Of a DNA stretch of 64,000 nucleotides, positions 4,784 through 62,783 are shown piece by piece. Made by a program: the position numbers and the translations under genes. Every line of letters starts with the position of its first letter. The first letter of the stretch is position 1. The stretch comes from Bryoerythrophyllum caledonicum (taxonomy: Eukaryota > Streptophyta > Bryopsida > Pottiales > Pottiaceae). The stretch spans positions 37,498,199-37,562,198 of the forward strand of contig OZ020516.1 in NCBI GenBank assembly GCA_963971425.1, written 5' to 3'. The notes under the pieces are model-generated. The model was given only the letters and a program-made list of their open reading frames with translations. It was not told where the DNA came from and made no database searches.

Positions 4784-5733
4784 TTAACCCCTAAGGTACC
4801 AAGACAGTTTTACACCAAAAACACTTCAAAATTAATGGATTCTAGTGCAATGAATAAAGAAGGTAACAAAAACTTTTATTTTTAGTTTTGACCGTAGGAT
4901 CTCAATAAAGGCTTATTAAGTAATACATGTACAAAATTTCATAAACTTTGACCACACGGATTGAAAGATTACAGTGTTTGAAGTCAAACAAATGGTTCAT
5001 TTTCTTCCCTGCGTTTAGTGGATCAGCAGACTTTGACTTCACTTGGTGTCAAAAAAATTCACTACACAAGGTCTAAATCTATTACCATCTTGTTAAGCAT
5101 GATGTTAGCTCCTTACACACCAAGTTTTAGAGGTAGAGACAGGGTGTAGCATATTCAAAACAAGTGTGCAAGGAGTGGAGGTTCGAAATTTGTTAATTCA
5201 CACTTTAATTTTTTTTGAACTTAATATGTTTTTTATTGATAATCCGAATGTTTAATATGAAGATTTACATTACACATTGATGTGGAAAAAATAAAAAGTG
5301 AAAATATGAAGATCTCTAGGTTTTATGTAGAAAAGAAGAAGTTTTTTTGGTACCTTGCCCGACAATGAGTGACAATGTGTGAAAATGTTTGACTTGGGTT
5401 GGTATGCTATTTTTCACTAAAGACAAGAACTTTTTTTTGAAAACATGAAGGGAAATAATATTACTTGCGAGTACTGAAAATCTCACTTTCAATAGAGTGT
5501 CCTATCAAAAGTTTTTGGAGGTGCCCAAGGTGCCCGCCCTCCCCATTTGAAATTAAAAACCCTGTAACTTTTTCATCAAATGTCCAATGTAGGAAAAAAT
5601 TGTTTTCCCACTAAGCTCTTGGTAATGTCTTTTTATAGTAAAAATTTCAAAGTGGAATGTTGGAAATTGACACCATAGGAACCTGACCGATTTTTCAAAA
5701 AGCCCGTTTTGGACACTTGGTCCTTTAGGGGTT
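4784..5733 (+). mobile_element. TTAA-family TIR element (piggyBac-like MITE), intact copy
   Basis: It begins TTAACCCCTAAGG and ends CTTTAGGGGTTAA. The TTAA at both ends is read as target duplication, with the TIR CCCCTAA inside. The body is non-coding and nearly identical to 21,411-22,362. The TTAA duplication and CCC-starting TIR are piggyBac hallmarks; no transposase of that type is seen here. Confidence 0.75.
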
Positions 5734-5788
5734 AACATAATGGCAAAGGATTTAGACCATGTGTAGTGCAAAAATTTGGCACCAAGTG

Positions 5789-6630: not shown

Positions 6631-7558
6631 TTAAGCACCGTAGTGTTTTAGAAGCAGAATCTGAAGGACTCGTTTTATCTCATTCCAAGTGAAACTAGAA
6701 GCGTGCATGAAAACATCTAGGTCTTGGTCGAATCCACATATTATGGTAAAGATGTAGTAGAGGTGCTTGCAGTAGGTCCAAGCACCATGCTTACCTAGTG
6801 ATTTCTTTGACATCTCCATGAAGGATGGACAATCACACAATGGAAACTGATCAATCGTCAACATATACCGTGAAACCTTGAAAATGCTACTGGACTGTAA
6901 AGTAATTATGCAGCCAAGAGCAGGAGGAAATACCATAGGGATATCGCAGATCTTCGCAGCTACTGATATTGCAGATGCACAATTGTTGTGGTGTTTAGTA
7001 GTAGGAGCTTTAAAATTCCTGGGGATGGACTTTCCGAATCTCATAGTGGGGTGGTCCGAAGCATTGGGAGGAGGAGGGTAGTCCGCCAGGTCCACGGAAT
7101 CGCCTTTGCCAAACAGCTTTTGAGGAGACATCTCCACACGCTCTGCAAGTCTGAAGCCGCCGCATTCGAGAGCAAATATCTCCGACTTGCTAAGATTAGT
7201 GCCAACTTCATCGGCCACATGTCTAGGACATGGGATTTTGAAACAACCCACGGTCGTTGAGGGCTGTGGACACAACGATGGATATCGTCTCTACAGAAAA
7301 AGAACTGCATTTCCTCCATTCGGGTCTTCTTGTAATTGTCCATGAGGCCACTATAAGTCGGAACAGCTGTAGGTCGCCCGCTCTGCACAATCTTTGTAAC
7401 ATATCTTTTTCTGCCATGCATAACAAAGCAAGCTTTTCTTGAGGTATTTGGAAGCCTTGTGATGTGCCACTGCCTCTCGTCGCAAATAGTCTCCTGAAAC
7501 AATTTAACATGCTGCACATGAGGCAAAGTAGTTGGAGTCTTAGACGAATGAACCTCAG
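6631..7558 (-). pseudogene. Outer transposase remnant: C-terminal part with SWIM zinc finger
   Basis: The minus strand encodes the last 300 codons or so of a SWIM-MULE transposase, with one frameshift near 7,225-7,250. Conserved blocks are KKTRMEEMQFFF, MSPQKLF, MRFGKSIPRN and then the SWIM finger FPLCDCPSF...YCKHLYYIF (CxC...CxH, about 6,750-6,850), ending at a stop at 6,631. The same blocks recur in order in the second copy at 8,327-9,060. The frame is open up to about 7,559, where it is cut by the inner element's terminus. The N-terminal and catalytic portions of this copy are absent. Confidence 0.7.
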
Positions 7559-8215: not shown

Positions 8216-9960
8216 GCGATTCAAGAACAATTCAAATTCTTGCCAATATAGTGGTGGCCCTGTAGTCTCATCGTCTCTTACATATTATAGAAAACAGGTA
8301 CAAGGGTTACTTCATGAAATCAAACACTAGGTGCAGCCCTCTTTCTGAAGCAAGACTTCGAGAACACGCTTAATCTTGTTGAAGCTAAAACTAGGGGCGT
8401 GCATAAAGACATCCACCTCTGGATCTAGCTGACAAACAATGGTGAAGATCAAATAAAGGTGTTTGCAGTAACACCACTGAGGACGTCTGCCAAGAGACTT
8501 GCTCGACATCTCTTTGAAAGACAGGCAGTCACAATTAGGAAATTGACTGACAGAGAGCATGTAGTTTGAAACCTTAGTTATGGATTTGGACTCGAACGAC
8601 AGAATGTAGCCAAAGGCGGGATCAGGGAGCATAAGAAGGTTACTGACTTTTCCAAGAACAAAAAGCGTAGATGCGTAGGTGTTCCGATGTCTCGTGGTTG
8701 GGGCCTTCGGATTCCGACGGATGTTCTTGCCAAATCTCCGCTTCGGATGCTCATCTGAGTTAACCGGAGTTGGAACAAATTTCAAGTCAAACACTGCCCC
8801 ATCCTGAGAAAACAACTTCCGGGGAGAGAGCATTACGCGCTCGGCGAGTCAAAAACCGGCATTTCCAAGACGTAGAATCTCGGCCTTCGTAAGGGACATG
8901 CCAGCTTTTACCGGCCAAACGTTAGGGACTGTTGGTTTAGAAATAACCCAGTTCTTCTTCGATCCCATCACACAGCGATGGATGTCATCATTACCAAAGA
9001 AGAATTGCATCCTCTCAAGCCTTGTCTTCTTATAGTTCTTCATCATGCCACTATAGGTCGGTGCGGTAGTACTCTTGTTGTTTTGTACAATTCGAGCAGT
9101 ACACTTCTTCTTCGTACCAGCCTATTATGCAAAACAGGCTTTCGCTGATGTCCTAGGCAACCTTGCAATATGCCATTTGCTTTTGTCGTAGGCAGTCTCT
9201 AAAACACCCAAAATATGGGTTACCCTTGCTGAAGTTCATGTTTGAGGGAGACTGGCGGGGTTGGCTAGAGCTTCCGCTATTGTTGAATAAACACACTCGT
9301 CACTAGTAAGGTCCACGGTAATTCGTGAAGACGCCCTAGTCGTGATCCTAGGGCATGAAACGTTGATTTTTTCTGGTCAATGAGGATCGAACTCAGATCC
9401 AGGAGGTAGGTCAGGCTTCCGTTTCAAGGACAAGAAGACTTCCTCTCCTTCCAAATGCAAAGGGCGAGTGCAAAACTCAACAGCTCGAAGCATATTACAG
9501 AAAGCCTCATGAAGTGCTTTGGAGTTCTCCAAACGTTGAGCAATGCGTTGAGCAGCACGAAGTGGAAGCTCTTCCTTCCCAGGCCCTTGCCCTCCTCGCT
9601 CTCCTTTCGAGAATTGATAGCAAGCCACGACTTACATGAATGCTCGAACTATGTCATCAACAGTGGCAAAGTATAAATCATTTCCACGTTTTCCCGACTG
9701 CTGCAACCACTTATTGTGGACAGTTTCCGCTAAATTGCAAGATGGCATTTCAGCCAATTCAGAATCTGTAAGTTCTTACAGACCTCAATCAAGAAATTTT
9801 GATTAATGAACTTGTAGAAAAAGAAGCATAAAATATGGATTGCGACCAATCCACAAGAGCAAGACGGCGAAACTAGACAACGTACAAAGAAATTCTTCCA
9901 AAATTCAGGGTCTGCCTTAAAGAAAAGGAGTTGTTAGTAAGGCACTAACAACGATAGGAA

Positions 9961-9982
9961 GGTGTGCCAGCAATGGCACACC
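9961..9982. repeat. 22-nt palindrome, intron of transposase
   Basis: Arms GGTGTGCCA and TGGCACACC pair perfectly around the loop GCAA. The same architecture is at 10,370-10,391, 14,245-14,266 and 14,309-14,330. Confidence 0.85.
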
Positions 9983-10369
9983 CATTTTCCAAGCTAGAAT
10001 ACACGGTCCAACTTATTTAATAAATGGGAAACTGTACACTGGAGGTGGAGGGGAAATTATAAGTCTACTACAAATTGCTCTTCTAAGTGAAAATAATGGC
10101 CAAGAGAAGGGACAGAATAAGGATGATTAGTTGTGAAGGGCTCTAAACTAACACAGTGCACATGCCCAATCTGTATTGCCGCTGGCGGCAGTGAACAATT
10201 GTGGGCTCGCATGAAGCGGTTTAATCGGTGAGGATACGCGTGCCTTTACAGGCAGACAAGTCTGCATGAAGCCTAAGAGAGGTTTATGTATCAGAGCAAG
10301 TAGGTATGCCGTTAACAACACATCCTTAACGAGTGGTACAGTTTTCACTATCAAGATCTACACAGCAAA

Positions 10370-10391
10370 GGTGTGCCGCTAACGGCACACC
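10370..10391. repeat. 22-nt palindrome, second copy
   Basis: Arms GGTGTGCCG and CGGCACACC pair perfectly around the loop CTAA. Confidence 0.85.
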
Positions 10392-12565
10392 TTCTAAGAC
10401 AACAAGATCCAGACTGCCGTTACAACGATGCCCAAATATGTTAATAACTTGATATTCAATTAAAAAAAATGCAGCAATTATAAAATGTATGTGGGATGAA
10501 TGAAAAAAGAACTTACCGATACCATAAACCCACCCCATTGTTGATATCCACCACGCTTTGATCGCCAAATACTTTGCTTCAGCTTCCTCTATTGTCTTTG
10601 CATCTTTGTACAACTTGCAAAGCTGACGATGTTGCTCTTGAAGGTCGGCTCTTATGTCAGCCTTCATGTACTTTTCAAGGAATTGAGTCCAGTGAAAAAG
10701 GCACGTTCTCCCCCGATTGTCTATCGATACTGACGCATCACCGCTCTCATAAAAAATGCGAATTGCATTCCAGTTGGCCTGTGCGCTATCAACCATGAAT
10801 CTCTTGAATGAAACTGTCGAAACATCGTGTCGTTCACCAACTGCATTCAACTTCTTCCAAAACACTAGCTGAGCTTTGACGTCCTCGGATTGCATGTCAC
10901 ATACGGCAATTGTCATCACACGGCAGTAGATTGAGTCGTACACATGACAACCCATCGTGGTCCATCCCTTTACTCGTTTGACATGGTCAAACATGATCCA
11001 CGAATCTTCAAGGTCTCCTCCAGGTTGCATTCGCTTCACAAGATCTACGCCGCTGCCAGGATCAAGTTCTGCCATCTTAAACACAAATACTTTGTCCAAA
11101 TCAGCGCCTTGCCCAGGAAATCTATTCTCTTGTACAAAAGTCCAGTTGCTTGATCCCCGAAGTTTAGTGATGCTATCCATTACACCAAAGCGTCGTAAGT
11201 ATCTAAAAGTTGTAACCTCGTTTCGGATACTAGGAGATGTCATTTGCTTAAATTTCTCCAAGACCGGCACTAGTTCCTCTAAAACTAGTGGCTTCTGTGA
11301 TACTCTCTCTGGACACAACAATAGCTCACCAAGAAACTCCTTACTTGCTTCCAAAATAATGGCAGAGTTTGTGGCAGTTGGAGTCCGCTCTACTTGCTCA
11401 GAGATGAGGGTCTTCAGCTTTGTGGAGGAATCTCGACAATTGCCTAATTTAACAGGATGCTCATGTGTTCCAATATGGACACATACACGGGACATGGTGT
11501 CCTTCTTCAACACATAGTAAATTTTTGTTAGGCAGGTTGTTAAGCAGGTAGACTGAACTCGACAAAGTTTACACACAACTGTTGAACCAGGAGGAGAAGC
11601 CCCACCAACCCCAAAAACAGATGACGACGTGCCCTCCCATTTGGTCTCATTAACGTTTGGCGCTCTATGCTTCCGCTCCAAGTATTCGCATTGAAGGTTG
11701 AGACATTGCATATGTCCCAAACATGAAGTGGTCTTGAAGGTGAGGTTAGAATCATTCGCAATGTGAGTGGTCACGGTTCTTGTCCAACTATGACTGTCAT
11801 GCTTCTTATCCATACCCATGAGCGATCCAGCCTGTGATGAGGCAATTCCTTTCCCAATGGATGGGAGCTCACGAAGACATCTCCATTGAAGGTTGTTGGA
11901 AGGAAGTCAATCTTCTCGACTCTAAAGGAATTAAAATCTAACTTGGTTAAAACAAATTTTGATCTGGATGGAGACCGAAGATTACGTAGACAGTCCATTG
12001 TACTAGGAGATTGAACAAGACTAGGAATCACTGTGGGTTTCAATCTTGGAGGCAGAGAGGAAGACGAAGCTAATGCCAGAGACTTGGCCGGAAGCGACAA
12101 TTTCTTCTCGGATTCAGAAGGACTAAATCCTAGACTATCACTGTCGGAGTCATCGCTGAGGATGTGAATCGAGTTCTCTACCGGTTCTAGTTTCACTTTC
12201 TGCAGCAAAGGTGTCACCTGGGTTGCAGAGGTAGACAACTTGGGTGTTTAGGAAACTGAAGGAGAATCGTCAAGACTATCCTGAGCTCCATACACTCTCT
12301 ACTTCCCACAACGAAGTGAGCAGACTACTGCATTATTTCGAATACATGATAACTGAGCGAGAGTGTGTATGAGCTCTCCTGTGAACTTGTCAAATTCATA
12401 TTTTTCAACATGCAAGGATCCCTCATTGATATGAAAACGCTGACTTAAATGTAGGGTACTAACAGTTGCAATTCCCTCAGTATCAGTGGAGAAACAAATC
12501 GGCAAGCATGCAGTATCTCTACGGATTACGATGGATCCCACGGCATGATCCGCTAAGGAAGCCAT

Positions 12566-13319: not shown

Positions 13320-14244
13320 TTGATGAGAAGTAGAGGCGTGAGAGGAATGGCTATGGGGAAGTCTAATGATTCGTTCCCTAAAACTTCCAAGAAATTAGAG
13401 CTTGATGGAGTTCACAATGGTGATGATAGGCAGAATAGTACTGAGCTAACTGGAATTCCAGAATGTCATGATGGAAGCCGTCATTTCCAGGAGGAAACCA
13501 ATGATCAAGCTAATTGTGAAATGAGTGAGGGGACCGAAGTAGAACCTGAACACAGGGAATGGACAACTAACTCAGGTACTTGAGAGGATTGGCCGCGTTG
13601 TTTTTGAGCATTTGTACTTTCGTGATCGACTGGTGATTTGATATTCGTTTAGGGTGTGATTCGATATTTTGTTTGTAGGTGAACTTTGAAAGAACTAGTT
13701 TGCGATAAGAGGGCGATAGTGGTGTATTGAAAAGATGTTTTAAGTAGTCACCTCACATCTGATTTCGCACTTTGTCATTACAATTCGCTGACGGCTTAGG
13801 GTTCATTTTGGCTATTCTGCATTTATTTCGGCTTTTGTGAGTGAGGAAGGTTTTTATTCCATCTGTCTGACCTCATTTCAGAAATGCGTAAATGGTCTTC
13901 GAGCTTGGAGTGGACCCGCAGAATGAGGTCTTTCTGACCTAGTGCGCTTTTGTGTTGCAGGCGGTTGTGAAGAGCGTGAGGGCGGTTCTAAAGATGGTGA
14001 GGGCGATTGTGTAGAGCGTGCGGGGGAGAGTAAAGAGCGTGCGAGAGTTTCTGAAGAGCGTGCGTGCGGTCCACTGTCGAATATGGATGGTGGCGAAACA
14101 AGTTCAGCACCGCGATCCACATATTTGTGTGAGTTTGCTTTTTGTGTGATGTTAAGGTGTTTAGGGTTGCATTTTGTTCGTTGGGGTTTCTCGGTGCTTT
14201 TGGTTTTTCGGGGTTTAGGGTTTCTCGAAACGGTTGCTCGGAGG

Positions 14245-14266
14245 GGTTTGCCGCCGACGGCACTCC
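14245..14266. repeat. 22-nt imperfect palindrome in ORF2
   Basis: GGTTTGCCG, loop CCGA, CGGCACTCC. It has the same 9-4-9 layout as the transposase-intron palindromes, with a few arm mismatches. It lies in the presumed ORF2 intron after 14,128. Confidence 0.7.
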
Positions 14267-14308
14267 GACCGCGATATCCATGTCAATGTTGACAAGGACT
14301 TGGCAGAA

Positions 14309-14330
14309 GGTGTGTTGGCGGCGGCACACC
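14309..14330. repeat. 22-nt imperfect palindrome in ORF2, second copy
   Basis: GGTGTGTTG, loop GCGG, CGGCACACC. The two T residues in the left arm look like C-to-T changes from the perfect form. Confidence 0.7.
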
Positions 14331-16656
14331 TTTCGCCGTAGCTTTCGTGCTGAATTAGGATGAACACGACGGATGATTGTCGTGGTGGAATGTGTGTTGC
14401 GGCGGATTAAAGTGCCGCCAAATCTGCGAAGTCAGTCAATGTCGACAGTCATTACGAGAGTTACGAGGATGACCCAGAGATATTTCAAAAAAAGCTTTGG
14501 TACCTATCAACCTCGGCAATGAAAGCCACGTCAAAGGTGAAGTGGCGGAGCGTTGGAACAAGCCGGCTTCCTTGCACGCTGTTAAATTTCCTAAGGCAAA
14601 ATTTGCAGACCATAGCTTTCATGAGTGGCTCACAAAGGCGACATGGTGGGCATAGGTTTGTTTGGAATCCCTATGCCATCAAATTCTTAAGCCATGAAAT
14701 TCTTAAGCCATCAAACTCTTAATTTCTAAACATACCCTCCGTGTCATGTTAATGCAACTGTCGTCCGAGGTCAATAACTTGTTTGACTCTACATTATATG
14801 AGCTCGGCGATTTGATTGACTATCACCCAGTTGGCAAGAGCTCCATTCCAACGATTAAAGATTGGGTGGAAATGATGCGAATTTAGCTTTGGGACTTGGC
14901 ATTTCTTGATGAGTTGGGTTCAAAGGAAGTGCACAAGAACTGTGTAGCGTAGTTGCGAGTAGGACTTTCGGAGGCCATTATCCGGGTGTTGTACGGATAC
15001 TTCTTCTACATCCTTTATCCAAGGAATGCAACGTCGAAGACGCCAACATTCTTGGAGAGCTATTTGGATCGAGATTCTGAAAATTGCATGATTACAGATG
15101 TTATTGCCAAGAAGTGGGCCCATCAACATTGGCAGAATTGCGGGTGGTATCTGGATTGCCCATTGACGAAGTCGCCGTCGTCCAGAAATCGCATCCAACT
15201 CGATTTAGTAGGTAACAAAGTTTTGGTTCTGCCCCCGGAGGCAGTAGCGGCAGTGAAGCAACCTCAAGGATCGAAGAGTAAGGCGACAGCTGAAGAGAAG
15301 GCTAGGATGGAGAAAGCTACTTCGGAGGCGAAAGCGGCATCGGAGGTTGAAGTTGCTGCCACATTGAAGGTTGTGGCAGTTGTGGCGGAAGCAAGTTTGA
15401 AGCGTTGTGCTGAAGCTGCTATTGCGAGGATCATGGCGAAGCAGGTAGCCCTTCATTCGGCCTCTGTGGCAGCGGATGTGGATGCGGACATGGAGATCAT
15501 GGACAGAGCTCATGACAGCATTATGGCATCTGTTGCTACCCGAACCCTTCATTCTTTGCCATCACTGTTGCAAGCTCTCTCCAGTCCCCTGTCTCTTGTC
15601 ACAATGACATTGAAGAAGAAGGTGGCCACCGATAAATCAGTTGATCTCTCTGCTTCATCCCATCCCGCTCCGGTCTTAGTGGAGCGGACGAGCATCCGGC
15701 AAATAATGGAGAAACTACTAGAAGTTCACGAGTGCCTCTCTATTCCTGGAATCTCCGTGAACGCAACTCATATTCCACTTTAGAATGAGTACTCAGTTCA
15801 AGATGTGGATTACTTATTCGAATTTGGGAGAATTTTCTCCTCAAAGAGGGTGCAATGCTGGTGTTTGCCCCTGACGTTCCTGAAATCCGAACAGACGTCT
15901 TCTCATATGCTGCGGCCTATAATTTGAAATTGCACCAAGAGTGGTGAAAATTAACGACCTTCCACTTTCTTCTTATACAAATCCAAGAGTTAAGGTTTGC
16001 TTCACTATCCAATTCACGGTGTCTTCCATCTTTTCCACAATTCATTACTAATGAGCTCCATTTCTGATTACATTTATAACTCATTATCTAAATCCCTTTC
16101 AAAACTATTTCAGTGTCGTCAATTTTGAACTCTTCTCTTCATCCACAACGCAATGGAAGGTAATCGCTTCTTGGTTGCTATTGATGAAGATCTTGTGGAG
16201 TTCGGAATGGAGGTCTCGGAAACGGACGTCCTCTTCAACTTTACTTTCTACGAATCTCAATCCATGAATGGTTATGTTCCTTGGAAAGGTGCCTGCGAGA
16301 AAGACCTGGTCTTCCTCCAGATGCTCATCGTTGCACTGACGAAGCGTGGAGATGTGGTCCATGACACCACCACAACAACTGGTACATAGTGATGCACTGT
16401 GTTCTCATTCTCTATTTCTAATTCTACTTTGATTGCCCATAACAATTGTTTTCTGTCACTAGAAAATTCCATTCGGGCTTGCACAACCATTGATCGTTAC
16501 ATTGCAGCCCTTGAGGATGACTTCCTTGTCTTTGAAGCAATGCTCTCTCAGTTCAAGACTTCCGAGCAAGCCGTTCACGTCCAAGCTTCCACTTCAGCGG
16601 CTCGGGCTGCACCTGATATTGATGTGCCCATTCGTCGAGTCACTCGAAGAAACTGA

Positions 16657-18362: not shown

Positions 18363-18976
18363 CGCCCATATTAGGATAGGTCGCACCAAAAAAGTAAAAA
18401 TTCGTTCAATTGTAATGAAAGGACACCCATAATTTGCCCAATCAACTGTTTTTGAGAGGGTGGGCCCTCATCTTAATGGCATTGGGTCATTATTTGTACC
18501 TCATATTTTGGGGGGCTGGAGGCTTTTTTGGACGAAATCCATACCAATTTTAAGACTTGTGGTACCATAGGGGCCCATCATGGTTAGTTGAACACCAATA
18601 GGTGATTATTATTTTACAGGGTTTATCCCTGCAATATAAAAATGGGGAACATGTTTTGTCCCCACCACCGCTCCCAAAAATCACTCGATTGGTCAAATTA
18701 CAGTCATATGAAGAGTGCACAATCACATGAACAAAGACCAATAATTCTGCAAGTTGATCCTCAAAAGGTGTTCCTCTTCCACAACATGGAATAAATTGAA
18801 CGAATCCAGTGGTGTATGGGTGGTCCCTGAGCAGCTTTCACTTTGCCTATGAGCTTAGATGCCATAGGTTGATGAAAATTGTGTGCATATTATTCTTCAT
18901 GGTTGTCTCTTGTGCGAGCAATACATGTAGCCACTATGCCTGCATGAACTTGCTTGTTAGAACAATGCCAGGCATT
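18363..18976. other. Unassigned sequence with C/G runs
   Basis: It contains pieces that loosely echo the G/C-tract MITE family (GGCTTTTTTGGACG, TTTTGTCCCCACC), but no termini could be matched. No coding signal. Confidence 0.35.
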
Positions 18977-19342
18977 AAGGTAAGCCTCCCCATAACCAAC
19001 AAAAACCCATAGCCAACGCCTATAAAATTGGGGTATATCCAACCCTCTTCCATCCCAATACCATCAACTCAGCTCCAAATGGAGGTTTGCTACTAGTCAA
19101 GACCCTTACTTTTGGTCATTGGTTATGGGGGTACCTACTACTGGCCACCCACTAAACATCGCTGCACACTTTGAAAATTCATAACTAATTCAGTTTTCAT
19201 CTAAAAAAATATGAAATCATGTGAGTTGGAATTGCAATTTTATTGGCTATCACTGAAAAATAATAGTATAATTATCTCCTCTCTCCATATATGCACATTC
19301 CTTAACTTGTCGGTTTTAGGGGGGCTTACCTTATACGGTCTC
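18977..19342 (+). mobile_element. MITE with splice-donor-like TIRs, copy 1
   Basis: It begins AAGGTAAGCCTCCCC and ends GGGGGGCTTACCTT. Copy 2 at 62,784-63,146 is the reverse complement at high identity along the whole length. It has no reading frame of note. Both ends, read inward from either strand, are AAG|GTAAG, the consensus of a 5' splice site. Confidence 0.8.
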
Positions 19343-19676: not shown

Positions 19677-20495
19677 TTTTTAACCCTTTAGCGCCCGGGA
19701 AGCCCGAAATGGGATTCCGGAGGTGCTCAAACTCAATTTTCATGAAATCCATGAGGAACTAGGCTTCGAGATACCAGGTTCATATTTGCGCACTCATTAC
19801 ACAAACACTCTCCAACAATCAGATCATGATTTGGATTTATAGAACTCTTGGAAAAGCTAGGAATACATCACAAAATACACCAAATACACTAAAATACAGT
19901 GAATACAGTGAATATAGTGAATACCATGCCACATACTATGTTGTATTTCACACGCATGCACATTGATTTTGGTCTTAAATTTTGATTGAACTTGGTCTTT
20001 AAGACATTCTTCATTGTTTTGTGATTGTTGATCTCTCTCCTCACATACGAAACTTTCGTTTTGATTTGTATAAGGTTGGAACATTTTTGTATACAATCAA
20101 GTAGAAAAAAGAAAAAAAATCACCAATAATTGGATATAAATATTTTCTTCACATATAATATGTCAATGCGAAGCTATCAACCTAGTGCACATGTGAACCG
20201 CTCTAATTCAAAGTAAAAAAATCTTGCAAGAATCTATTGATGGTTAAAGTAGTACACCCTCCAAATTCCACAGTTTTCACTACCAATATATGGTAACTTT
20301 AAACACTATAATCTATTCCATCGACGGTTGGATGTTGTACAAAATTTCCCCAAAGTTGAGATCATGCGTTAAGTTCAATTTTGTAAGGTTAGATATTAAT
20401 ATTAGTCATTGTATTTCCATCAATTCCGGTTCAAAGAAAAAAATCAGCAGAAATCTTGGTTTTTCCAGAAACATCCCTGGGCGCTAAAGGGTTAA
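19677..20495 (+). mobile_element. TTAA-family 2 TIR element, copy 1
   Basis: It begins TTAACCCTTTAGCGCCCGGG and ends TGGGCGCTAAAGGGTTAA. The body is nearly identical to 27,618-28,453. The TTAA ends and CCC-starting TIR parallel the CCCCTAA family, but the body sequence is unrelated. Non-coding. Confidence 0.8.
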
Positions 20496-21171
20496 GGGGC
20501 GGTTTACACTATAGACCAAGAGCCGTGACCAAGGAAAATGGATTAATTCCATGGTCACACTTCATGGTCACACTTCCATGGTCACACTTCATAAAAATGT
20601 CATTTTTAAAGCCCTTGGGCCTCTCACTAAGTGTAAACCGAACTTGGACCAGGAGGAATGACCATGTACTAAAAAGTGGGCATACTGATTTTTTTAATGA
20701 ATGCCTAAAAAGGGCAGTATTTCCTAAAATAACAAAGAAAATAAAACAAGCCAATAAGACAAAAAGGGTGGCCGCCATTGTATCTACAGTAACGTTGGGC
20801 CCCCTTCCCAAAAAAAAACAAAAATAAAAACAAAACTTAAACAAAAAAAACAAAAAAAACAAAAAAAAACAAAAAAAAAAACAAAAAAAAACCAATTAGA
20901 AAAATAATAAAACCGTATTTCAGGCCCATGGTCCTCATTTCAGCAACGAGAGAACCATTTAGCCTCTCTCGCCACAAAATCCGGGGTACCTTCCAACATT
21001 ATCCATTAGGCCTATTTCTAGGCCTTTTGAGGACCTCAACTCCTTTGGTCACTTTTCTTTTTTCCTCCTAGCGTAAACCCAAGTCATCCCGGGACGAGTT
21101 GATGGAGCCAATCACAGATTTAAGAGGGTCATGGGACGAGTTCTTGGTCCGTAGTGTAAACCGCCCCTAAT
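20494..21171. mobile_element. TIR element abutting TTAA-family 2
   Basis: Left end AGGGGCGGTTTACACTATAG and right end (minus strand) AGGGGCGGTTTACACTACGG, followed by ACCAAGA in both. It directly joins the preceding element at its TTAA. It contains a short triplication of ATGGTCACACTTC (20,558-20,592) and an A-rich tract. No transposase seen. Confidence 0.75.
20811..20895. repeat. A-rich low-complexity (CAAAAAA)n tract
   Basis: Runs of 5-10 A separated by single C. It creates the artefactual Phe-rich frame on the minus strand. Confidence 0.85.
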
Positions 21172-21410: not shown

Positions 21411-22362
21411 TTAACCCCTAAGGTACCAAGGCAGTTTTACACCAAAAACACTTCAAAATTAATGGATTCTAGTGCAATGAATAAAGAAGGTAACAAAAAC
21501 TTTTATTTTTAGTTCTGACCGTAGGATCTCAATAAAGGCTTATTAAGTAATACATGTACAAAATTTCATAAACTTTGACCGCACGGATTGAAAGATTATA
21601 GTGTTTGAAGTCAAGAAAATGGTTCATTTTCTTCCCTGCGTTTAGTGGATCAGCAGACTTTGACTTCACTTGGTGTCAAAAAATTTCACTACACAAGGTC
21701 TAAATCTATTACCATCTTGTTAAGCATGATGTTAGCTCTTTACACACCAATTTTTAGAGGTAGAGACAGGGTGTAGCATATTCAAAACAAGTGTGCAAGG
21801 AGTGGAGGCTCGAAATTTGTTAATTCACACTTTAATTTTTTTTGAACTTAATATGTTTTCGATTGATAATCCGAATGGTTAATATGAAGGTTAACATTAC
21901 ATATTGTTGTGGAAAAAATAAAAAGTGAAAAATATGAAGATCTCTAGGTTTTATGTAGAAAAGAAGAAGTTTTTTTGGTACCTTGCCCGACAATGAGTGA
22001 CAATGTGTGAAAATGTTTGACTTGGGTTGGTATGCTATTTTTCACTAAAGACAAGAACTTTTTTTTGAAAACATGAAGGGAAATAATATTACTTGCGAGT
22101 ACTGAAAATCTCACTTTCAATAGAGTGTCCTATCAAAAGTTTTTGGAGGTGCCCAAGGTGCCCGCCCTCCCCATTTGAAATTAAAAACCCTATAACTTTT
22201 TCATCAAATGTCCAATGTAGGAAAAAATTGTTTTCCCATTAAGGTCTTGGTAATGCCCTTCTATGGTAAGAATTTCAAAGATGAATGTTTGAAATTGACA
22301 GCATAGGAACCTGACCGATTTTTCAAAAAGCCCATTTTGGACACTTGGTCCTATAGGGTTAA
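21411..22362 (+). mobile_element. TTAA-family TIR element, intact copy
   Basis: TTAACCCCTAAGG...CTATAGGGTTAA. Body nearly identical to 4,784-5,733, implying recent spread of this subfamily. Confidence 0.8.
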
Positions 22363-22443
22363 CCCTTTCAGAACCACAAGGTCCTCAGAGAATCTATGAG
22401 TGTAATAGACTATGCACAACAACATTTACACAGAGGGTACATT

Positions 22444-22807: not shown

Positions 22808-23699
22808 AGGGTGTGCTCCATGTTTCTATTCAGTCTAACCTTGATAATATCACTCCCTCCGTTTCACTAAAAAGTATGATATAAACAAGGTGTGACAAAT
22901 TTGATAATATCACATTTGGAGGATTTATGCATAATGTGATATTATCAAAAAGAAAAAGGTAGAAAAACAAATAACAATGGTAAAATAACATTAAAAATTT
23001 AATGAAAAAGAATGGTTGAAACAAAAAATTATTATCAAGATTGGCCACATAAGAGAAAATCAAACGATCTTGACTCTCTCTAGAATAAAAAGGATATAAG
23101 CCTTAAACTACCATTAATTTCCCAACAGAAACCAAGAATATGGATCTTCAAACTTCCTATCTAAAATGAAATAAAAGGTAGAAGTCAATACACACCATCC
23201 TCGGTGCATCAGAACTCCTTGAGAAGCAAGAGATGGAAATCACCTGGAGGACTCGTTTCTTCATTTCAACTTCCAAGGAATGAAAGGTATGTGCAAGACC
23301 ATCCAGCGTCTAGTTGCTCTTACTCTTGGGAATTTCTCGTGAGTCATGGAAGCTCTTGTGCACTTTGGTCACAATCTGGAAGAAAACCATTCCCATCACT
23401 GACCAGAGTTGGTGTAACAAGTTCACATAACTTACTTTAATACTTAGTGAAGATGCTCCCTGCCAAAACCAAAACCACGTCACAAACTATTTGAAAGTAG
23501 ATTTTTTATTAAAAAATTTGTAATTTAGTGGGCAATTACAAAGTTTTGATAGTTTTTGGCCAAGGGCAAGGGGACAGGTCACCGAGATGTCGTCCATCCG
23601 ATCACTTATTCATTTGTGCAACTTGTTATTGTCACACCTACACTATAGTTTTTGGAAGAAGAAAAAAAGTAATAACAAGGAAGTTTTGAACTAGGAAAA
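22808..23699. other. Unassigned AT-rich sequence
   Basis: AT-rich. A 78-codon frame at 23,204-23,440 shows no domain. Nothing else recognised. Confidence 0.35.
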
Positions 23700-25662
23700 T
23701 TGGTTACAAGGTTTTGGGTGATAATATCAAGGCGTTCTATTAACTCTCTCGTGGTTTGGTTCAGAAGAGGGTTATTACATTCAGATCATGTACAATTGAG
23801 AAAACCATGTTTGTGGGTGATTGATTGTCGGCGTGGTGGTGAGAGGCATGGAGATGGTCCATGGGGTGATGAGCAATTATCCAAAGCCTTTGCACAACTA
23901 GTGTTATGGATGACAAACATTGAACGATGGAATGTCATCTTTTTATTACCAGTGGCCATATACGCCAATGAAGAGTTGTTCACGAAGTTGAAGCTTTATA
24001 AGGATTGTTCTATGCAACATGGAATTTGGATATTTGATCCCAACTCGGTTGATTTTGATGCTCTCGATTTTATAGAGAGTGGGCACTTGCAGCAAATGAT
24101 ACAACCAATTGGAGCTGTTGTGATTTGCATGGAGCACCCTATTGGTACTTCCCCTCGCCTCAACTATGTTTCTGGGGATTGTTCACTTCCACTTGTATTT
24201 CACAATCTGTGGGGCGATGCACGCCAACCTTCTGAAGGTGATCATTTGGAGAGATCTCCATCGGAGCTATTTAGACTCGTGGGTCTATACTTGCCTCGGG
24301 GTTGGAGTTTAATGGCATGTCGTATTTCCACGGTCATTCCTACGATGCTTTAAGGGGATTTCCGGGGATCTGAGATCATTGTCATTGATAATTGCATAGA
24401 GAGGGCTAGATTCCTAGACAATGAGTTGTGCAACAATTTCCAAGGGTAGATGTTGATCACTAAGATAACAATTGGAACAACATGGCTCCTAATATCGTAC
24501 AAGAGACCAAAAAGGGGATTGATCGATAGAGGCAAGAGAACAACGACAACAAGGAAGGAACTTTAAATGAAAGATTGTCACGTTCATCTAGATCAAAATA
24601 TTATTTGTCTGACAATAGCTTGACCAATGAGGACTCAAGGACCGATAAAAAAAAAAGTGGATAGGTCTCCTATAAGGGAGAGAATTACATCAATGCAGCG
24701 AGCAATGGAAGACACTTTGGGGGAGATGTCAGGAACAGCTGTAGAGAGGTTGGAAGATACCGTAGGTGAACCTCTGGTCCGGCATAAATTAATTAGAAAA
24801 GCCCATGCCGAATTAAGTGGAAAATGTTTTTTTGAAAATGCCGAAATTGCAAAAAATGCATATTTACAGATTTTGGCACATGTAGAGACATCAAAGGGGA
24901 TTAAGGCTTGGAAAAGTCTTCATCCATGGCAATCATGTACAAGCACTTGAGTTTGGAATCCCAAGGTCTTGAGTTCAATTCCCATGGGTGCCAAAACAGG
25001 CCAAATATAGCAGTATTTGATTTCTTGCCGAAAATAACATTATTGTAATTTTGAATGCCGAATGTCATTTTTTCACTTTAATTAATTATTCGGCATTAAG
25101 GTGCCGGACTAGAGGTTCACCTACGGTATTGGTGTAGTAGATGATAGCTTGGTGGCAATGGGAAGAGAGGCAAATACATTTGCTTCTCAAAGGCTTGACG
25201 TAGAGCGAGAAGCATCCGACTTGCTTGAATTTTTTGCGGTGTAGATGAGAGTTCGGGAGCCTTTGGGGTCTTCTCAAGCACAAATTGAATCAAAGACTCA
25301 TGAGAGGGTTGCAAGTACATGAAGTGATACACCACCAATATTGCCTTCTATTCCAAGATCTGACGTATTGGAGGACATCACTGCATTTCATGGGGGCCTT
25401 TTGTACAGATCGAGAGATGTCGTTTAAAGATGGTTTCTACTATAATGATGATATAAGACACACGCGGCACGGTGAGTCTGGCAGTTACAAATATGTTAAG
25501 TCTGCATCCATAAGTCTTGGAGATACGATAGATCATCAGATGCATGCTCATGAATTGTCTGCTATGATAGAGAATGCTATAGGACACGCGGAGGAAGTCG
25601 AGTCGCTGGAGGATGATGAGAGTCCTTCTGCTATAGCATCGCTATATTGGTTGGAAACATGA
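23700..25662 (+). pseudogene. ORF2-like methyltransferase remnant (third copy)
   Basis: The longest frame (to 24,353) holds HGDGPWGDEQLSKAFAQL, which resembles catalytic motif IV (DPPW-like) of amino-methyltransferases, then ERWNVIFLLPVAIYANEEL. Further on, LWGDARQ and LERSPSELFRLVGLYLPRGW align with LWRGAREKSPVLLQMLVES of element B (motifs X and I). A likely motif III segment (IIVIDNCIERARFLDNELC) follows 24,353 after a frame change. A coiled-coil-like tail (ITSMQRAMEDTLGEMSG) is interrupted at 24,760-25,126 by a MITE and resumes in frame (VAMGREANTFASQRLDVERE) to a stop near 25,244. A final open frame (25,285-25,662) ends in an acidic segment. No transposase copy was found beside it. Confidence 0.5.
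24760..25126. mobile_element. 367-bp MITE with TA target duplication inside ORF2 remnant
   Basis: TIRs CCGTAGGTGAACCTCTGG (left) and CCGTAGGTGAACCTCTAG (right, minus strand) extend through TCCGGCA, with one mismatch in about 25. TA flanks both ends, as in Tc1/mariner elements. The reading frame left of the insertion continues in frame on the right if one TA is counted once. The interior carries a B-box-like GAGTTCAATTCCC near 24,972-24,984. Confidence 0.85.
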
Positions 25663-27617: not shown

Positions 27618-28453
27618 TAACCCTTTAGCGCCCAGGAAGCCCGAAATGGGACTCCGGAGGTGCTCAAACTCAATTTGCATGAAATCCATGAGGAACTAGG
27701 CTTCGAGATATCAGGTTTAGATTTGCGCAATCATTACACAAACACTCTCCAACAATCAGATCATGATTTGGATTTATAGAACTCTTGGAAAAGCTAGGAA
27801 TACAACACAAAATACACCAAATACACTAAAATACAGTGAATACAGTAAAATACAGTGAATACAGTGAATATAGTGAATACTATGCCACATACTATGCTTG
27901 TATTTCACACACATGCACATTAATTTTGGTCTTAAATTTTGATTGAACTTGGTCTTTAAGACATTCTTCATTGTTTTGTGATTGTTGATCTCTCTCCTCA
28001 CATACGAAACTTCCGTTTTGATTCGTATAAGGTTGGAACATTTTTGTATACAATCAAGTAGAAAACAGAAAAAAAATCACCAATAATTGGGAATAAATTT
28101 TTTCTTCACATATAATATGTCAATGCGAAGCTATCAACCTAGTACACATGTGAACCACTCTAATTCAAAGTAAAAAAATTCTTGCAAGATTCTATTGATA
28201 GTTAAAGTAGTACACCCTCCAAATTCCACAGTTTTCACTACCAATATACGGTAACTTTAAACACTATAATCTATTCCATCAACGGTTGGATGTTATGCAA
28301 AATTTCCCCAAAGTTGAGATCATGGGTTAAGTTCAATTTTGTAAGGTTAGATATTAATATTAGTCATTGTATTTCCATCAATTCCGGTTCAAAGAAAAAA
28401 ACCAGCAGAAATCTTGTTTTTTCCATATACATCCGTGGGCGCTAAAGGGTTAA
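27618..28453 (+). mobile_element. TTAA-family 2 TIR element, copy 2
   Basis: CTAACCCTTTAGCGCCCAGG...GTGGGCGCTAAAGGGTTAA, colinear with 19,677-20,495. It carries an expanded AATACAGT tandem near 27,825-27,870. The left TTAA has decayed to CTAA. Confidence 0.8.
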
Positions 28454-29404
28454 GTGACAAAATATTTCACCTTGACTGAAATTATCTTTCAATCTGACCA
28501 GTCAAATATCTACAAAATTTCAACCACCATCTCTATAAGATTAGAAGAAGGTCTTAGGATTACATTCTCAAAAGGTTCAATTGAGTAATTTTTATTCAAT
28601 GGGGTAGAGATTACTCTTAAACACCTCGGTTATATTTTTAGCAAAATATGCTTCAAAAGCTTGTCAACAAGACCAGTTTTCTTTTGGAAAATCACTCAAA
28701 AGTACCTAGTACTTATGAAGAGACATCTCACATCAAGTACAAGATGATGGGTTGCCCATGATGCACAAATGATGCAGATGGAATTATTGCAGAAGGGACT
28801 GTGGCAGAATATTTATCTTATCCAATCCAAGGGTGCCATGTTCCTGAATGAAATGCATGTTCTCACAAGGTTGGCTTTTCAACCCACTTGTGCCACAGGC
28901 CACAAATGTTTTTAGTTCAACTTTATTTTTAACAGGTGTGAAGGCCACAGTTGGACAAGAACTAAGTTGACCAGGTCTTGCATAGATTAGCAGCCCTCCA
29001 TTATTTAGACCAGGTCTCCGATAGATGAGCTCTGGGCTTCCCAGGGATTTTCAGTTCCATTGATTGCACTCACTGGGTGTGGAAGATTTGTCACTCACCT
29101 TGGCGAGGACAATACAGAGGCATGGATGGGACTCAATCAATAATTGTGGAGGCAATTGCCTCATGAAATCTCTGGATATGGCATGCTTGTATCAGAATGT
29201 TAGGTTCAAACAATGACATCAATGTCGTTGACCAGAGACTTGATGATTGAAAATGTGTCCGGTGCCGGGCTGAGTGCCAAATTCAAAGTGAATCGGCATG
29301 ATTACAATTCATGTTACCTCCTAGGAGATGGAATATGTAATGATTAGGCAGTATTCCCAAAAATAACTAATCCAATTGGTGAGAGAAGAATCTCCCTATG
29401 TACT
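28454..29404. other. Unassigned sequence
   Basis: About 950 bp of non-repetitive, moderately AT-rich sequence without a supported frame. It may be old unique host intergenic sequence. Confidence 0.35.
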
Positions 29405-33419: not shown

Positions 33420-33727
33420 CTGATATTGGCACAACGTTGACATACCAAAGCTCAACTACATCTGGCTCAATCTTGTTTCTTCCAAACCCAGTTCTGGAGG
33501 TGCTTCTTCCAAGTCCACATGTGGACGGGCCACCACAATAACCATGGCAAAAGAGGCAACAAATTTAGCGGTAGGTGGCTTTAGAGAAGCTTGTAACTTC
33601 TCTAAGGCTACACAAAAAACATCCCATTTAGTGTAGTCACCCTAAATCAACAAAGGGGCAATTGACTTTAAGTTCATGCCACTTTGGAAAAAATTCCTAG
33701 GGCCTATTGCTTTGGTGGAGATGCTCT

Positions 33728-34950
33728 TATCCCCTAAATTACTTTGACGATTTCACACCAAAAACACTTCAAAACTGCTCGTTTTAGTGGAATGAGTAAT
33801 GAAGGAATCAAAAACCTATCTTTCTATTTTTAACCATACAATCTCAATTAATACTTATTAAGTAACATACTCACAAAATTTCATCAATTTTGATCGTACA
33901 AATTGGAAGATTATAGTGTTTAAAGTAGTGAAAATGATTCATTTTCTTCCGAGCGTTTAGTGGATAAGCAAACTTTGACTTCACTTGGTGTCCATTTTTT
34001 GCAATACACAAGGTCTAAATTCATTACCATCATGTTAAACATGTTAATAGCTCCTTGCACACCAATGTTTAGAGGTAAAGTAAGGGTCTAGCATATTAAA
34101 TAAAACTAGTACATCCCCCGTTGTCATCAACTGGCCCGGGCAATCCCAAGTTAAATAAATGTATGCAAATGCAAAAATCAAATTTACCCATTATATACGC
34201 ATTATGTACTATATATAACTATTATTCACTTTAAATACCCATTATTTATTTCATATACGTGTTATTGTCTTTTAATAACTACCATTTATTTTATGTACCC
34301 GAGGTAGTATATTGTGTAGTTTCAATATGTTGGAAATTATGGTTTTATTTTTTTATTTTTGATACATAATACAAATTTAAAACTCAATAAGCCAAATATG
34401 AATAAAAGGGCACTATAAAATATTCCTCCAAAGGGCACACATGGAGGATTCTTTCAAAGTTCACATTCAATTCAAAGGGCACATTTGATTCAAATGATAA
34501 ATCCAAAGGTCACATGACGAGGAGCGGCGGACAGACAAAGTGACGCCTTTTATATAGGTAGATGTGCAAAGAGTGGAGGTTCAAAGGTTTCAATTCACAT
34601 TTTGTATCTTGTAAACTTAATATGTTTTAGAATGAGAATCCAAATAGTCAATAAGAAGATTTACACCACATAGTGCCGTGAGGAAAATATGAAGTAAAAC
34701 TTATGAAGATCTCTAAGTTTTATGTGGGAAAGGAAGAAGATTTTTTGGTACCTTGCCCGACAATGTGTGACAATGTGTGGAAATGTTTGATCTGGGTCTA
34801 TATGCTATTTTTCACTAAAGACAAGAGGTTGTGTTTTTACAATATGAAAGGAAATCATATTATTCGCTAGTGTTGAAAATCTCACATTCAATAGACTATC
34901 CTAGCAAAAGTTTTTGGAGTTGCCTGACATGCTTGCTCTCCCCATTTGAG
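33728..34950 (+). mobile_element. TTAA-family element carrying a nested R1 repeat
   Basis: It matches the family from ATCCCCTAAATTAC through to the CAAAAGTTTTTGGAG block near 34,905. The match is interrupted at 34,108-34,563 by repeat R1 and resumes with TGTGCAAAGAGTGGAGG. The right TIR is not recognisable. Confidence 0.7.
34108..34563 (+). repeat. Dispersed repeat R1, copy 2 (nested)
   Basis: ACTAGTACATCCCCCGTTGT...TTTTATATAGGTAGA, colinear with 745-1,405 but with most of the tandem array deleted. Uninterrupted family copies read AAAACAAGTGTGCAAGG across the same point, so the borders are exact to a few bases. Confidence 0.7.
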
Positions 34951-38890: not shown

Positions 38891-39215
38891 TTAGAGATTG
38901 CTATCGCGAAGCACCAACTGTATTTCATCGAAGCTGAGACTTGGAGCATGTATGAACTTGTCATCTTCACATTTTGCCTTGCAAAGGTATCGATACACAT
39001 AATACAAATGCTTGCAGTTTGTCCATGCTTCGCGCTTACCTAGTGCACCACTGCTCATGCTAACAAAATAATCACACATGCAGGAGGGAAAGTCAGAAAA
39101 AGAAATCACATATGTCATCTCGTCCGGAACAATACCTGATTGGAGCGCAATGACTCTTCCATAGCCGGGATATGGAATTGGCATCCCATTCTTCACTGTG
39201 CTTGTCGTAGTCTAG
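38891..39215 (-). pseudogene. Element B transposase, SWIM exon
   Basis: The minus strand gives KNGMPIPYPGYGRVIALQSG, then FPSCMCDYF...NCKHLYYVY (CxC...CxH SWIM finger) and FIHAPSLSFDEIQLVL, ending at a stop at 38,891. It is colinear with both SWIM copies in element A. The 5' part of the exon is separated from the rest of the gene (44,168 onward) by a 4.9-kb insert at a point where the A copies read continuously. Confidence 0.7.
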
Positions 39216-44167: not shown

Positions 44168-47100
44168 TCCTACAGTGCCCGTCACGTTTCGGGCTGATTT
44201 CCACTTGTTACGATGGTCTACGGTTGGAGCCCCTTCGTACCACTTGATAGTCCTGCCATATCGCTTAGTAGGATGGGCAACACCATTGGAGGGACTTGGA
44301 TTGATATTATATGTAACCGCTGTTGTGGGAAAGGCTTAGAAGAGACGTCGAGGAGACATGTCAAAATCCTTCGTTTGTAGTTGAAAGCCGACCTCTTCTA
44401 GTAATAAGATCTCGCCCTTCGTGGGATTAGTGCCCCGGGAAACGGGCCAAATAGATGGAAGTGGGGGCCAATCCCAAACCCAGCTACACTTGTTGCTGTA
44501 AACGCATATCGTAATGTTATCAGCACAGAACTAGAAGTCGAAATTTATCATGGCCCTTGTCCCATACTCGGTCATGCGGCCGATATAAGTTGGTGCTGGA
44601 GTACCCTTCTTCTTATCTTTGACGATAAGAGCCACACACTTCTTCTTGTGCCCTGATTGAATGCTGTGGCATTTCTTGCCGACCTTCCTGCAGCGTGCAA
44701 TGTGCCATTGCTTTGGATTGCATTCGCTCTCCAAGATTGAGGTGGCATGAGGATAATCGGATGGCCTATCTTCAGTGAGAGTACTCTCGACAGTTGATGT
44801 CCCAGCTTCAGTGCGGGCTCGTGTTGAACGGGTCTGAACACGGGGGTGGGAGAAATTGACTTTGTCGTGACGATTGGAGTCATCTTCAGAACTAGGTGGA
44901 AGATCAAGCTTCCGCTTACTTGAACCAAAAACCTCTTTACCTTTGAGGTGGGGAACTCTGGTGGTAAACATCTCCGCCCCGGAGACCTTGCTGATAGTTC
45001 TAGCAATTTTGACCGGGTCATTTGATCGTCTCGTAGCTTGTAGCCGAAGTTCATCAAGGTGGGGCCCAGTGCTGGAAGCGTGACCGTGTAAGAAAGCCTA
45101 GTAGTTCGTGGACTTTATCATTGCTTGCATCTTGTCATCGGTCGTGGCAACGTAGAGGCAAGTGCCTCTGTTGCCAGACATCTGTAGCCACTTGTTGTGC
45201 ACGGTCTCCGCAAGGTCGCAGAACGGCATCTCGGCCAGCTGCTCCATGTCCAGTTTCCACAGTTCATGTAATAGGATTTGAGGTTAGGGTTTTCGAATTC
45301 CCAAGCAAACCTGAACGACAGATAGGGCTTTGATATAAAATATTGACAAGTAAAATTTAGGGTTTGGGATTTAGAAGTGTACCATGTTCATGAAGCCACC
45401 CCATTGGCGATAGCGGAAGTGCCAAAAATCGAGCCAGTCATCGAGCTCCCTTATTGTTTCTTCACAAGCTGCACGAGATGACAACTACCAACCTTTGATG
45501 CCGAGGTACAATTCTTCCGCCTCTTCAGATGTCTTGGCGTCTTTGTATTGTCTGCAAAGTCTAACATGCTTATCTCAGAATTCAGGCCGAATAAGTTTAT
45601 TCGTGTGTCTATTCAGGGACGTAACCCAATGAAGTAGACAAGACCTCTCTCTGTCAGCCATCTTCACGTTGGGATTACCGGTTCCGTAAACAATGTGAAC
45701 AACATTCCAGTTCGTCTAGGCGCTGTCTGCCATGAATCCTTTGAAGTTAGGGTTCAGGATGCCGTGACGTGCCACCACGCTGTTCAGGGACATCCACATC
45801 TGTTTCTGCGATTCAGCGTCTTCGCTTTGCATGTCACAAACGGCAATGGTCATCACGCGGCAATATTCAGTGTCGTAAATGTGGCAGGCGATTGTGGTCC
45901 AGCCCTTGACACGCTTGACGTGATCAAACATAATCCAGGAGTTCTGGAAGTCTCCTCCGGGTTGCATACGTTTGACGAGGTCGACACCACTGCCCGGTCC
46001 TTCTTTATACATCTTGAACATGTACACCTTCTCCTTGCCTTGCCCTGGAAAGATGGTATCTTGGATGTATGCGTACGGACTTTTCAACTTTAACATTATG
46101 ATGTTGTCAAGTGGTCCTCCATTAGCAATTGATCGCATGGTCGAGATAGCATTTTTGATATTAGGTGAACTAAGTATCCTAAACCTTTCCATAACCTTGA
46201 GAAGAGAGTCACCTCGGAGCGGTTCTGGGCTGCCCTCTCGATCAAGTGCAAAGATCACAGACGAAAGAAACTCTTTACTAGCAGCTAGAGCAATGGTAGA
46301 ATTCATCGCCGTAGGAGTTCTAAGCACTTCGTTTCTTACTAACTCTGTGGCTCTTTCAATAGATTCTCGGCAAGTGCCTTTAGAACTCAGATGTTGATGT
46401 GTTCCCACATGAATACATGCTCTACCTAATCCATTCTTATTGACAACATAATACATCCGGCAAGGACATGTGTCAAGAGAAGATGGATGGGACTTACAGA
46501 TCTGGCACGCCAGCGTAGAATTTGGAGGTGCCTTCTTTCCTATTGGAATGACATGTTGGGAAATTCCTTCCCACTCCGTTTCATTTCTGGAGCCAGTCCG
46601 TCGCATCCGAGGGCAAGTGTCGTTCATGCATTGGAAATGGCCAACACAGCTAGAACACCTGAAGGTGAGACCAAAATCATTGACAATGTTAGTGGTGAAA
46701 GTTTTCGTCCACACATGTCCATTGTATCGTTTGTCCATGCCTTCCATTTGGCGAGCTATGGATGGAGAAGTAGAATTAGTAAGCGGGGGGAACTCAAACA
46801 TGACATCACCATTGAAATTTTTTGGGAGATACTAGACCTTCTCGTAACGAAGTGTATCTAGATTTACGAACTTAAGATCATTCTTCCCCCTAGGCCTACT
46901 TTGTAATTGCTTGAGGCAGTCTAAAATAGAGAAAGTATCTACTTTAGGCGGTAGAGGAGGTCGTGAATTCTGGGAAGGGTGGCTTGAAATGGACTGAGAA
47001 CCACTTTCAGGTATCTCTAGCACTATTTCTATAATTGGTGAGAGGAAGGAGTACTGAGGTCCTACTCTAAGGAAGATCATGGGACGACTCACTGAGAATG

Positions 47101-51094: not shown

Positions 51095-52009
51095 CAAAAA
51101 GGTTCTTGATACTCCTCTACATCAAGGAGTCTTACAAATAGAACATGGTGGACTCCAAGTTCTCTATTGATAAGATTTGGACCCTAAGTGCACTTGAGAC
51201 AAACCTCGTCAATGAAGAAGTCCTCCACAATTTGATAGACGCAAACACGGCCTTGAAAACTGAGCAGAAGCTTTGGAGAGGAGCCAGGGAGAAGAGCCCA
51301 GTCTTGCTTCAGATGCTCGTTGAGAGCTTCTCCAATCCTGGGGATGTCGTTCTTGATTGCAATGCGTTCACCGGTTCTCCCGACATAACTTTCTACTTTC
51401 TTTCCATACTCTACTCATTTCTTGATCACTAATGCTGGGATTTTGTCATGCATGAGCTTCTATTTATGCATGTCGAAGAACTAGCCGCCACCTTGTTGCG
51501 TTGGAGGCTGATGTCAAAATTTATGAAGGGATTATAAAACCCCTTAATGCCCCAACAACAGAAGATTCAATGTAGCGTAAAAGGAAGCACCAATCTTCTC
51601 CAGTTATACCTGACAAGAGGCCTCAAAATAAATCTCCAAAAACAGGATATGTACGTAAGTCTAAGCCTATGTCAATATTCTTTACATGCAAATGTAGCAA
51701 AGTATTTACCTTCACTTTGTTTATTGCACTTCAATGCACTGTTCGATATCATTAAGCTAATTAGTAGTTTGATTCCTTCTGTGGCAGGTTACAAAATTTC
51801 TTCCAATCTCCTCCAAGCTCGGTATTTTCCCTACCTTGTTACATAGAGCATGTTGCTAGGGAACTAGCATGCCTTGAAACACTTGTGCGTAAACCTAAAT
51901 CTCCAAGGTTTAACAAGAATGTCAAGATGTACTTAGACTTGGAGGGAGAGGAGGCAAGTACAAGCAATAGCGGTAAGAGTGCCCGCGAGAGTTCAACCTC
52001 AACCAATTG
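51095..52009 (+). pseudogene. ORF2 of element B, C-terminal methyltransferase-like exons
   Basis: After acceptor TTTGTAG (51,094), and past one TAG at about 51,140, the frame gives VDSKFSIDKIW, then LWRGAREKSPVLLQMLVES and NPGDVVLDCNAFTG (motifs X and I). A short intron (donor GTTCTC near 51,372, acceptor before 51,457) leads to ASIYACRRTSRHLVALEADV (motif III-like, Arg-His...Leu-Glu). A stop follows at PLNAPTTEDSM, near 51,573. A further spliced exon ends YLDLEGEEASTSN...STSTN at 52,009. The aligned blocks in element A (EKDLVFLQML, GDVVHD, SIRACTTIDRYIAALEDD) show purifying similarity exactly at the methyltransferase motifs. The catalytic DPPW-like motif is missing because the middle of the gene is replaced by the minisatellite. 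Confidence 0.6.
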
Positions 52010-53960: not shown

Positions 53961-54115
53961 GATTAATCTATTATTCGTTAGTTATTGAAGTTGGACTAGG
54001 GCTTAGTGTTCTTAAATCTTACAAGATATGTTGCACAATAATCGCCATAGCTTTTATAGCCTAAAATTAATAACTTATAACATTTATAAATCAATTAGGA
54101 TGGTTAACACTATAT

Positions 54116-62489: not shown

Positions 62490-62783
62490 TTTATACATGT
62501 AAGTACTAGGTAGCGTAGAATTCCTCCGGAAGGAAGCGGTGTATAGTAGCAAGCCGGGCGTGCTTTGAGCTAGAGTTAGTATTGTTTAAAAAGTCGGCTT
62601 TTGAAGCTGTTCAATTTTTTTACTCACACGTTCGTAACCCCTCAAGTTTCCTCCGCTCGGCCACACTTTTGATTGAACTCTGGTTGTATATACATGCGGT
62701 GTTGCAATGAACGAAACAGACGGCTTTTGAGTGGGTTCTCTTTGGGGGCTTTTCATCATAGAATGATTTTTAGGGATCCCACT
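62490..62783. other. Unassigned sequence
   Basis: Probable 3' flanking sequence. Nothing recognised. Confidence 0.4.

Follow-up and report, generated by a model that had tools for sequence, protein, structure and literature searches.

The window analyzed here, a 64-kb stretch of the Bryoerythrophyllum caledonicum genome, contains intron-bearing genes and many nested repeats, which mark it as eukaryotic. Two elements within it, A and B, share a divergent layout in which the transposase lies on the minus strand and a second gene, ORF2, on the plus strand. Open frames delineate the element A transposase (8327-11906) as a core (10326-11906) and a C-terminal piece with CxC...CxH (8327-8848), and tblastn with pieces of A located that of element B (44168-46831) in three pieces (45476-46831, 44531-45097 and 44168-44359). 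These transposases are putatively of the SWIM-MULE class, on the basis of CxC...CxH and DDE-like motifs recognized by eye; five transposase pieces searched against Pfam gave no MULE or SWIM match at E-values up to 10. Around A and B, no assignable TIRs, target-site duplication or element ends were found: the one strong inverted pair near A, 79% over 67 bp, is part of dispersed repeats, and the best pair around B had an E-value of 0.043. Further C-terminal transposase pieces occur on the minus strand at 6631-7290 and 38909-39196 (sharing 56% and 41% identity, respectively, with the C-terminal piece of A), and the family exon profiles described below found no ORF2 exons beside them.

Several other features were observed in the window. 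A 953-bp repeat, probably a non-autonomous element, is present at 4784-5736 and 21411-22363 (96.5% identical) with inverted ends TTAACCCCTA...TAGGGTTAA, and diverged copies lie at 1717-2357, 33726-34949 and 53003-53963. An inverted pair at 18975-19333 and 62783-63142, 43 kb apart, is 92% identical over 361 columns, and a direct repeat of ~0.8 kb (19681-20496 and 27618-28454) is 94% identical. A Roco-like gene was identified on the plus strand (57723-62061), with LRR_6 scoring above the Pfam cut-off and Roc and COR-A slightly under it.

ORF2 was compared with two open copies (L025 and L026) obtained from a family scan of prokaryote genome contigs. Both are filed under uncultured Synechococcales cyanobacterium AVDCRST_MAG81; as they contain GT-AG introns, we take them to be misfiled eukaryotic contigs, probably eukaryotic contamination of that cyanobacterial bin. 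L025 and L026 are 90.6% identical over 3.1 kb, and each comprises an open exon of ~548 codons, then an intron and a final exon. Their product begins with an N-terminal domain without a Pfam match and continues through a charged linker rich in Lys, Glu and Ala to a methyltransferase domain, for which the single open exon encodes motifs IV, X and I and the next exon motif III.

The earlier note had placed ORF2 of element A at 13320-16656, and from 14758 on this extent is borne out, as it is colinear with the open outside copies. The N-terminal domain and charged linker (14758-15564) match L025 at 24% identity with an E-value of 7e-9, to which the linker may contribute since the comparison was run with the low-complexity filter off. 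For 13320-14757 the relatives give no such match: the first open frame of L025 was found nowhere in the window, so the putative 5' part (13323-14757, ATG at 13323) is delineated solely by open frames. Three exon profiles built from outside proteins and searched against the six-frame translation of the window matched element A in a piece after motif IV (15789-15944, beginning GAMLVFAPDVPEIR...; upstream-exon profile, E = 6e-5), in the exon with motifs X and I (16153-16381; E = 8e-24, boundary placed by splicing) and in the last exon with motif III and a basic tail (16463-16656; E = 5e-7). The same profiles identified two plus-strand exons in element B, one carrying motifs X and I (51145-51373; E = 2.8e-26) and a last exon carrying motif III (51457-51575; E = 1.5e-16), and never scored better than E = 1.4 in other frames of the window or in all of the reversed window. 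The profile proteins had been fetched using A and B as queries, so these matches demonstrate membership of one family rather than independence.

The succession of motif X, motif I, intron and motif III that had been described for the ORF2 C-termini was recovered in both elements. It reads WKGACEKDLVFLQML...GDVVHD, an 81-bp GT-AG intron (16382-16462) and ACTTIDRYIAALEDD in A, and WRGAREKSPVLLQML...GDVVLD, an 83-bp GT-AG intron (51374-51456) and ACRRTSRHLVALEAD in B, with both introns at the same place and in the same phase, in agreement with L025 and L026. ORF2 of element A is broken by a stop at 15781-15783, after which the next matching piece (15789-15944) lies in a different frame; by eye, homology seems to continue in a third frame from ~15941, and two further upstream stops appear when A is read along L025. 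In element B, neither the upstream-exon profile nor comparison with L025 matched an upstream domain, leaving the last two exons only. Between the B transposase and these 3' exons lies a tandem array (49087-50773, TRF) whose units measure 254, 193 and 61 bp.

The X-I-III motif order had been read in the earlier note as a sign of beta-class amino-methyltransferase ancestry, and the profile and structure searches proposed there as a check favor this assignment, as do Pfam and PDB comparisons. A protein search with B returned three proteins at E-values up to 1, and once these three had been aligned with A and B, a search with the alignment returned 119, of which 116 (E = 8e-9 or better) carry no Pfam label and the remaining three, at E = 0.16 to 0.35, carry PF01555 (N6_N4_Mtase). 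Three of five intron-free (spliced) relatives passed the PF01555 cut-off of 26.7 bits (29.7, 29.5 and 27.0 bits), with P0085 (21.6 bits) and L025 (25.3 bits) falling below it. Among the nine PDB sequences listed for a family profile at E-values up to 10, eight were amino-methyltransferases, with two significant matches. Profile-profile comparison gave a probability of 97% spanning motifs X to III, and the score of 81.1 compares with a maximum of 18.2 among 60 column-shuffled controls. Against a phage/bacterial amino-methyltransferase profile, B scored 24.8 bits and A 8.5 bits, where the maxima of 500 shuffles each were 5.3 and 4.7 bits. Chance likeness could be argued from the elements taken singly, as the exons of A alone matched no methyltransferase in Pfam or PDB and B alone stayed under the Pfam cut-off (16.4 bits, E = 0.0088) while matching DpnA in PDB at E = 0.007. 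However, the Pfam, PDB, profile-profile and phage/bacterial profile results, together with their shuffled controls, strongly disfavor this explanation, which we consider barely credible.

The half of the domain that carries motif IV was more difficult to place. It had no Pfam match in the relatives and reached a probability of 24% when compared alone by profile, and a global profile alignment (in a mode without shuffled control) put the motif IV site on DPPY. A structural model of this half was weak (pLDDT 50): all 50 Foldseek matches listed were amino-methyltransferases, with no E-value below 0.0049, and VIA-align 2 ranked other methyltransferases and unrelated folds equally high. The best of the listed Foldseek matches were the MT-A70 proteins METTL3/METTL14 and MTA1/MTA9, whose likeness to ORF2 is confined to this weak structural match (E = 0.0049 and above), without a sequence match. 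METTL14 and MTA9 are non-catalytic partners.

A third ORF2 copy with a DGPWG motif-IV-like site had been proposed at 23.7 kb. The open frame in question (23676-24353, plus strand, 225 aa) does carry the DGPWG string but is not supported as a copy, since it matched none of the profiles tried: there was no match with the three family exon profiles, its score against the phage/bacterial amino-methyltransferase profile (-3.6 bits) fell among those of 500 shuffled versions of itself, and Pfam returned an unrelated repeat alone (E = 0.95).

The motifs of the C-terminal domain differ in how closely they follow the enzymes. Beta-class enzymes (PF01555; DpnA/M1.HpyAVI, CcrM and MboIIA in PDB; bdelloid N4CMT) have the order IV-X-I-III in common with ORF2, and motifs X, I and III align. 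Among 75 aligned relatives, the Trp and Lys of motif X and the Asp of motif I are present in all (75/75), and the last Gly of the motif I loop is kept in 68 while the first is replaced by Ser in 67; the 75 are a selection from 131 found by exact words partly taken from these motifs, so these figures lean upward. ORF2 departs from the enzymes in this first loop Gly, in an additional N-terminal domain, in an intron within motif I, in its location on a transposon and in motif IV. All 16 relatives that reach the motif IV site read D-[IV]-[PL]-[DE], with Pro at the third position in 13, and none has PP[YFW], a conservation that is partly built in because most of these sequences came from one word-based search; this bias does not touch L025 and L026, whose retrieval relied on motifs X and I. 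The [DNS]PP[YFW] signature of active DNA amino-methyltransferases was thus found in 0/16 relatives, and element A reads EVHE at this position (15721-15732), where MAFFT aligned it with DVPE of L025. The main departure from the enzymes is the catalytic motif IV and not the Gly loop. The suspicion of a binding protein, which the earlier note had raised from the altered Gly loop, gains support from these data, with motif IV contributing more than the loop.

These observations bear on whether ORF2 could still be catalytically active as a DNA (or RNA) amino-methyltransferase despite its unusual motif IV, marking or protecting the DNA of its element through 6mA or 4mC. Such activity would fit the good conservation of motifs X and I, the purifying selection on the domain in the single pair tested (L025 and L026) and the occurrence of adenine methylases in DIRS elements (PMC5890265, in part). 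Conversely, PP[YFW] is missing from motif IV in 16/16 relatives and from the EVHE of A, and changing the catalytic SPPY of bdelloid N4CMT to APPA abolishes methylation (PMC8885841, in part). We regard an active enzyme as unlikely. With the active-site signature exchanged, the ORF2 protein more likely binds DNA or a cofactor than carries out ordinary methylation, and since the AdoMet side is kept and PP[YFW] is lost, a binding protein would be the simplest reading of the sequences.

For this single pair of copies, dN/dS was 0.10 over 548 codons, with values of 0.07 for the N-terminal domain, 0.15 for the linker and 0.08 for the methyltransferase part (dS 0.26), and the altered site in L025 and L026 looks kept, not decaying. 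The stops and frame changes in A and the missing upstream domain in B would fit a captured methyltransferase gene that is functionless in its element and decaying. However, both outside copies are open over ~548 codons with this low overall dN/dS, and 116 relatives reach E = 8e-9 or better, which makes such decay improbable as an account of the family.

The pairing of ORF2 with a transposase was seen in two copies within the 64-kb window. Having only these two copies in one window, together with the failure to find shared ends around them and, in B, the ~3.6 kb and tandem array between the transposase start and the recognizable ORF2 exons, leaves room for ORF2 being mobile in its own right, or belonging to a multicopy gene family, and having come to lie beside the transposase by chance. 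The L025 contig ends 551 bp ahead of its first open frame, and no transposase was seen in that stretch. Nevertheless, both recognizable ORF2 copies of the window adjoin, divergently, its two larger transposase copies, and these transposases share no more than 47% identity (453 alignment columns) and so do not stem from a recent joint duplication, which speaks against a separate element; we consider chance adjacency a rather poor prospect.

Computation shows the descent of the X-I-III half, the domain layout and its intron, the change in motif IV and the low dN/dS between the two outside copies, and from the sequences we infer that the ORF2 product is a pseudo-methyltransferase that binds DNA and possibly AdoMet. 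The explanation we favor is a MULE-like DNA transposon with two genes, of which ORF2 is the second and encodes an accessory pseudo-methyltransferase. In this model, ORF2 would lie head-to-head with its transposase in one element, and its protein would combine an N-terminal domain of unknown fold and a charged linker with a C-terminal domain derived from beta-class DNA amino-methyltransferases in the order IV-X-I-III, with the intron falling inside motif I. The AdoMet side (motifs X and I) would have stayed near the enzyme state, and the catalytic [DNS]PP[YFW] of motif IV would have become D-[IV]-[PL]-[DE]. Through this protein the element would recognize its own non-coding DNA, so that silencing is relieved or transposition helped in a manner resembling VANC of the VANDAL elements. 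Taken jointly, the two-gene element, the pseudo-methyltransferase and the self-recognition role are held tentatively, at somewhat short of an even chance.

VANC, the second gene of VANDAL MULEs, binds tandem repeats within non-coding regions of the element that carries it and lifts silencing, and it shares with ORF2 both its position as second gene of a MULE or MULE-like element and the presence of tandem repeats in non-coding parts (PMC5735166 and PMC10398659, both in part). Tandem repeats adjoin ORF2 in B and precede the first open frame of L025, and may be coincidental. In L025 the repeated unit is 106 bp long, and the repeat (positions 1-397) contains an internal palindrome. VANC differs in carrying DUF1985 and DUF287 (from the same literature), neither of which ORF2 matches: no Pfam match to either was found in the frames of A or in L025 and L026. 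The parallel is suggestive only, and an anti-silencing role of ORF2 like that of VANC is conjectural.

Transposons with DNA methylases, TET/JBP enzymes, SET domains or anti-silencing factors are known already. Published cases include DIRS elements carrying Dam-like methylases, retrotransposons carrying DNMTs, DNA transposons carrying TET/JBP and Phytophthora MuDR elements carrying SET (PMC5890265 and PMC12730594, in part), and the extra genes listed in a MULE survey include SET, OTU and PMD (PMC6446971, in part). Like ORF2, the DIRS, DNMT, TET/JBP and SET-MuDR cases place a modification-type gene on a transposon, but they involve enzymes or element classes other than those of ORF2, and SET targets histones. 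No amino-methyltransferase relative in a MULE appeared in the listed titles and opening abstract lines of the literature searched, and the word "methyltransferase" is absent from the main text of the MULE survey (PMC6446971). A further possibility, which we think doubtful but worth stating, is that in a diverse MULE-like transposon family selection swapped the catalytic PP[YFW] for D[IV]P[DE] and thereby turned a DNA writer into a transposon-encoded DNA reader, perhaps gated by AdoMet, that targets the repeats of its own element and protects the element from silencing. Should the altered active site be retained for binding, ORF2 would exemplify, in testable form, the conversion of an enzyme fold into a self-recognition factor and would provide an entry point to how such elements evade silencing.
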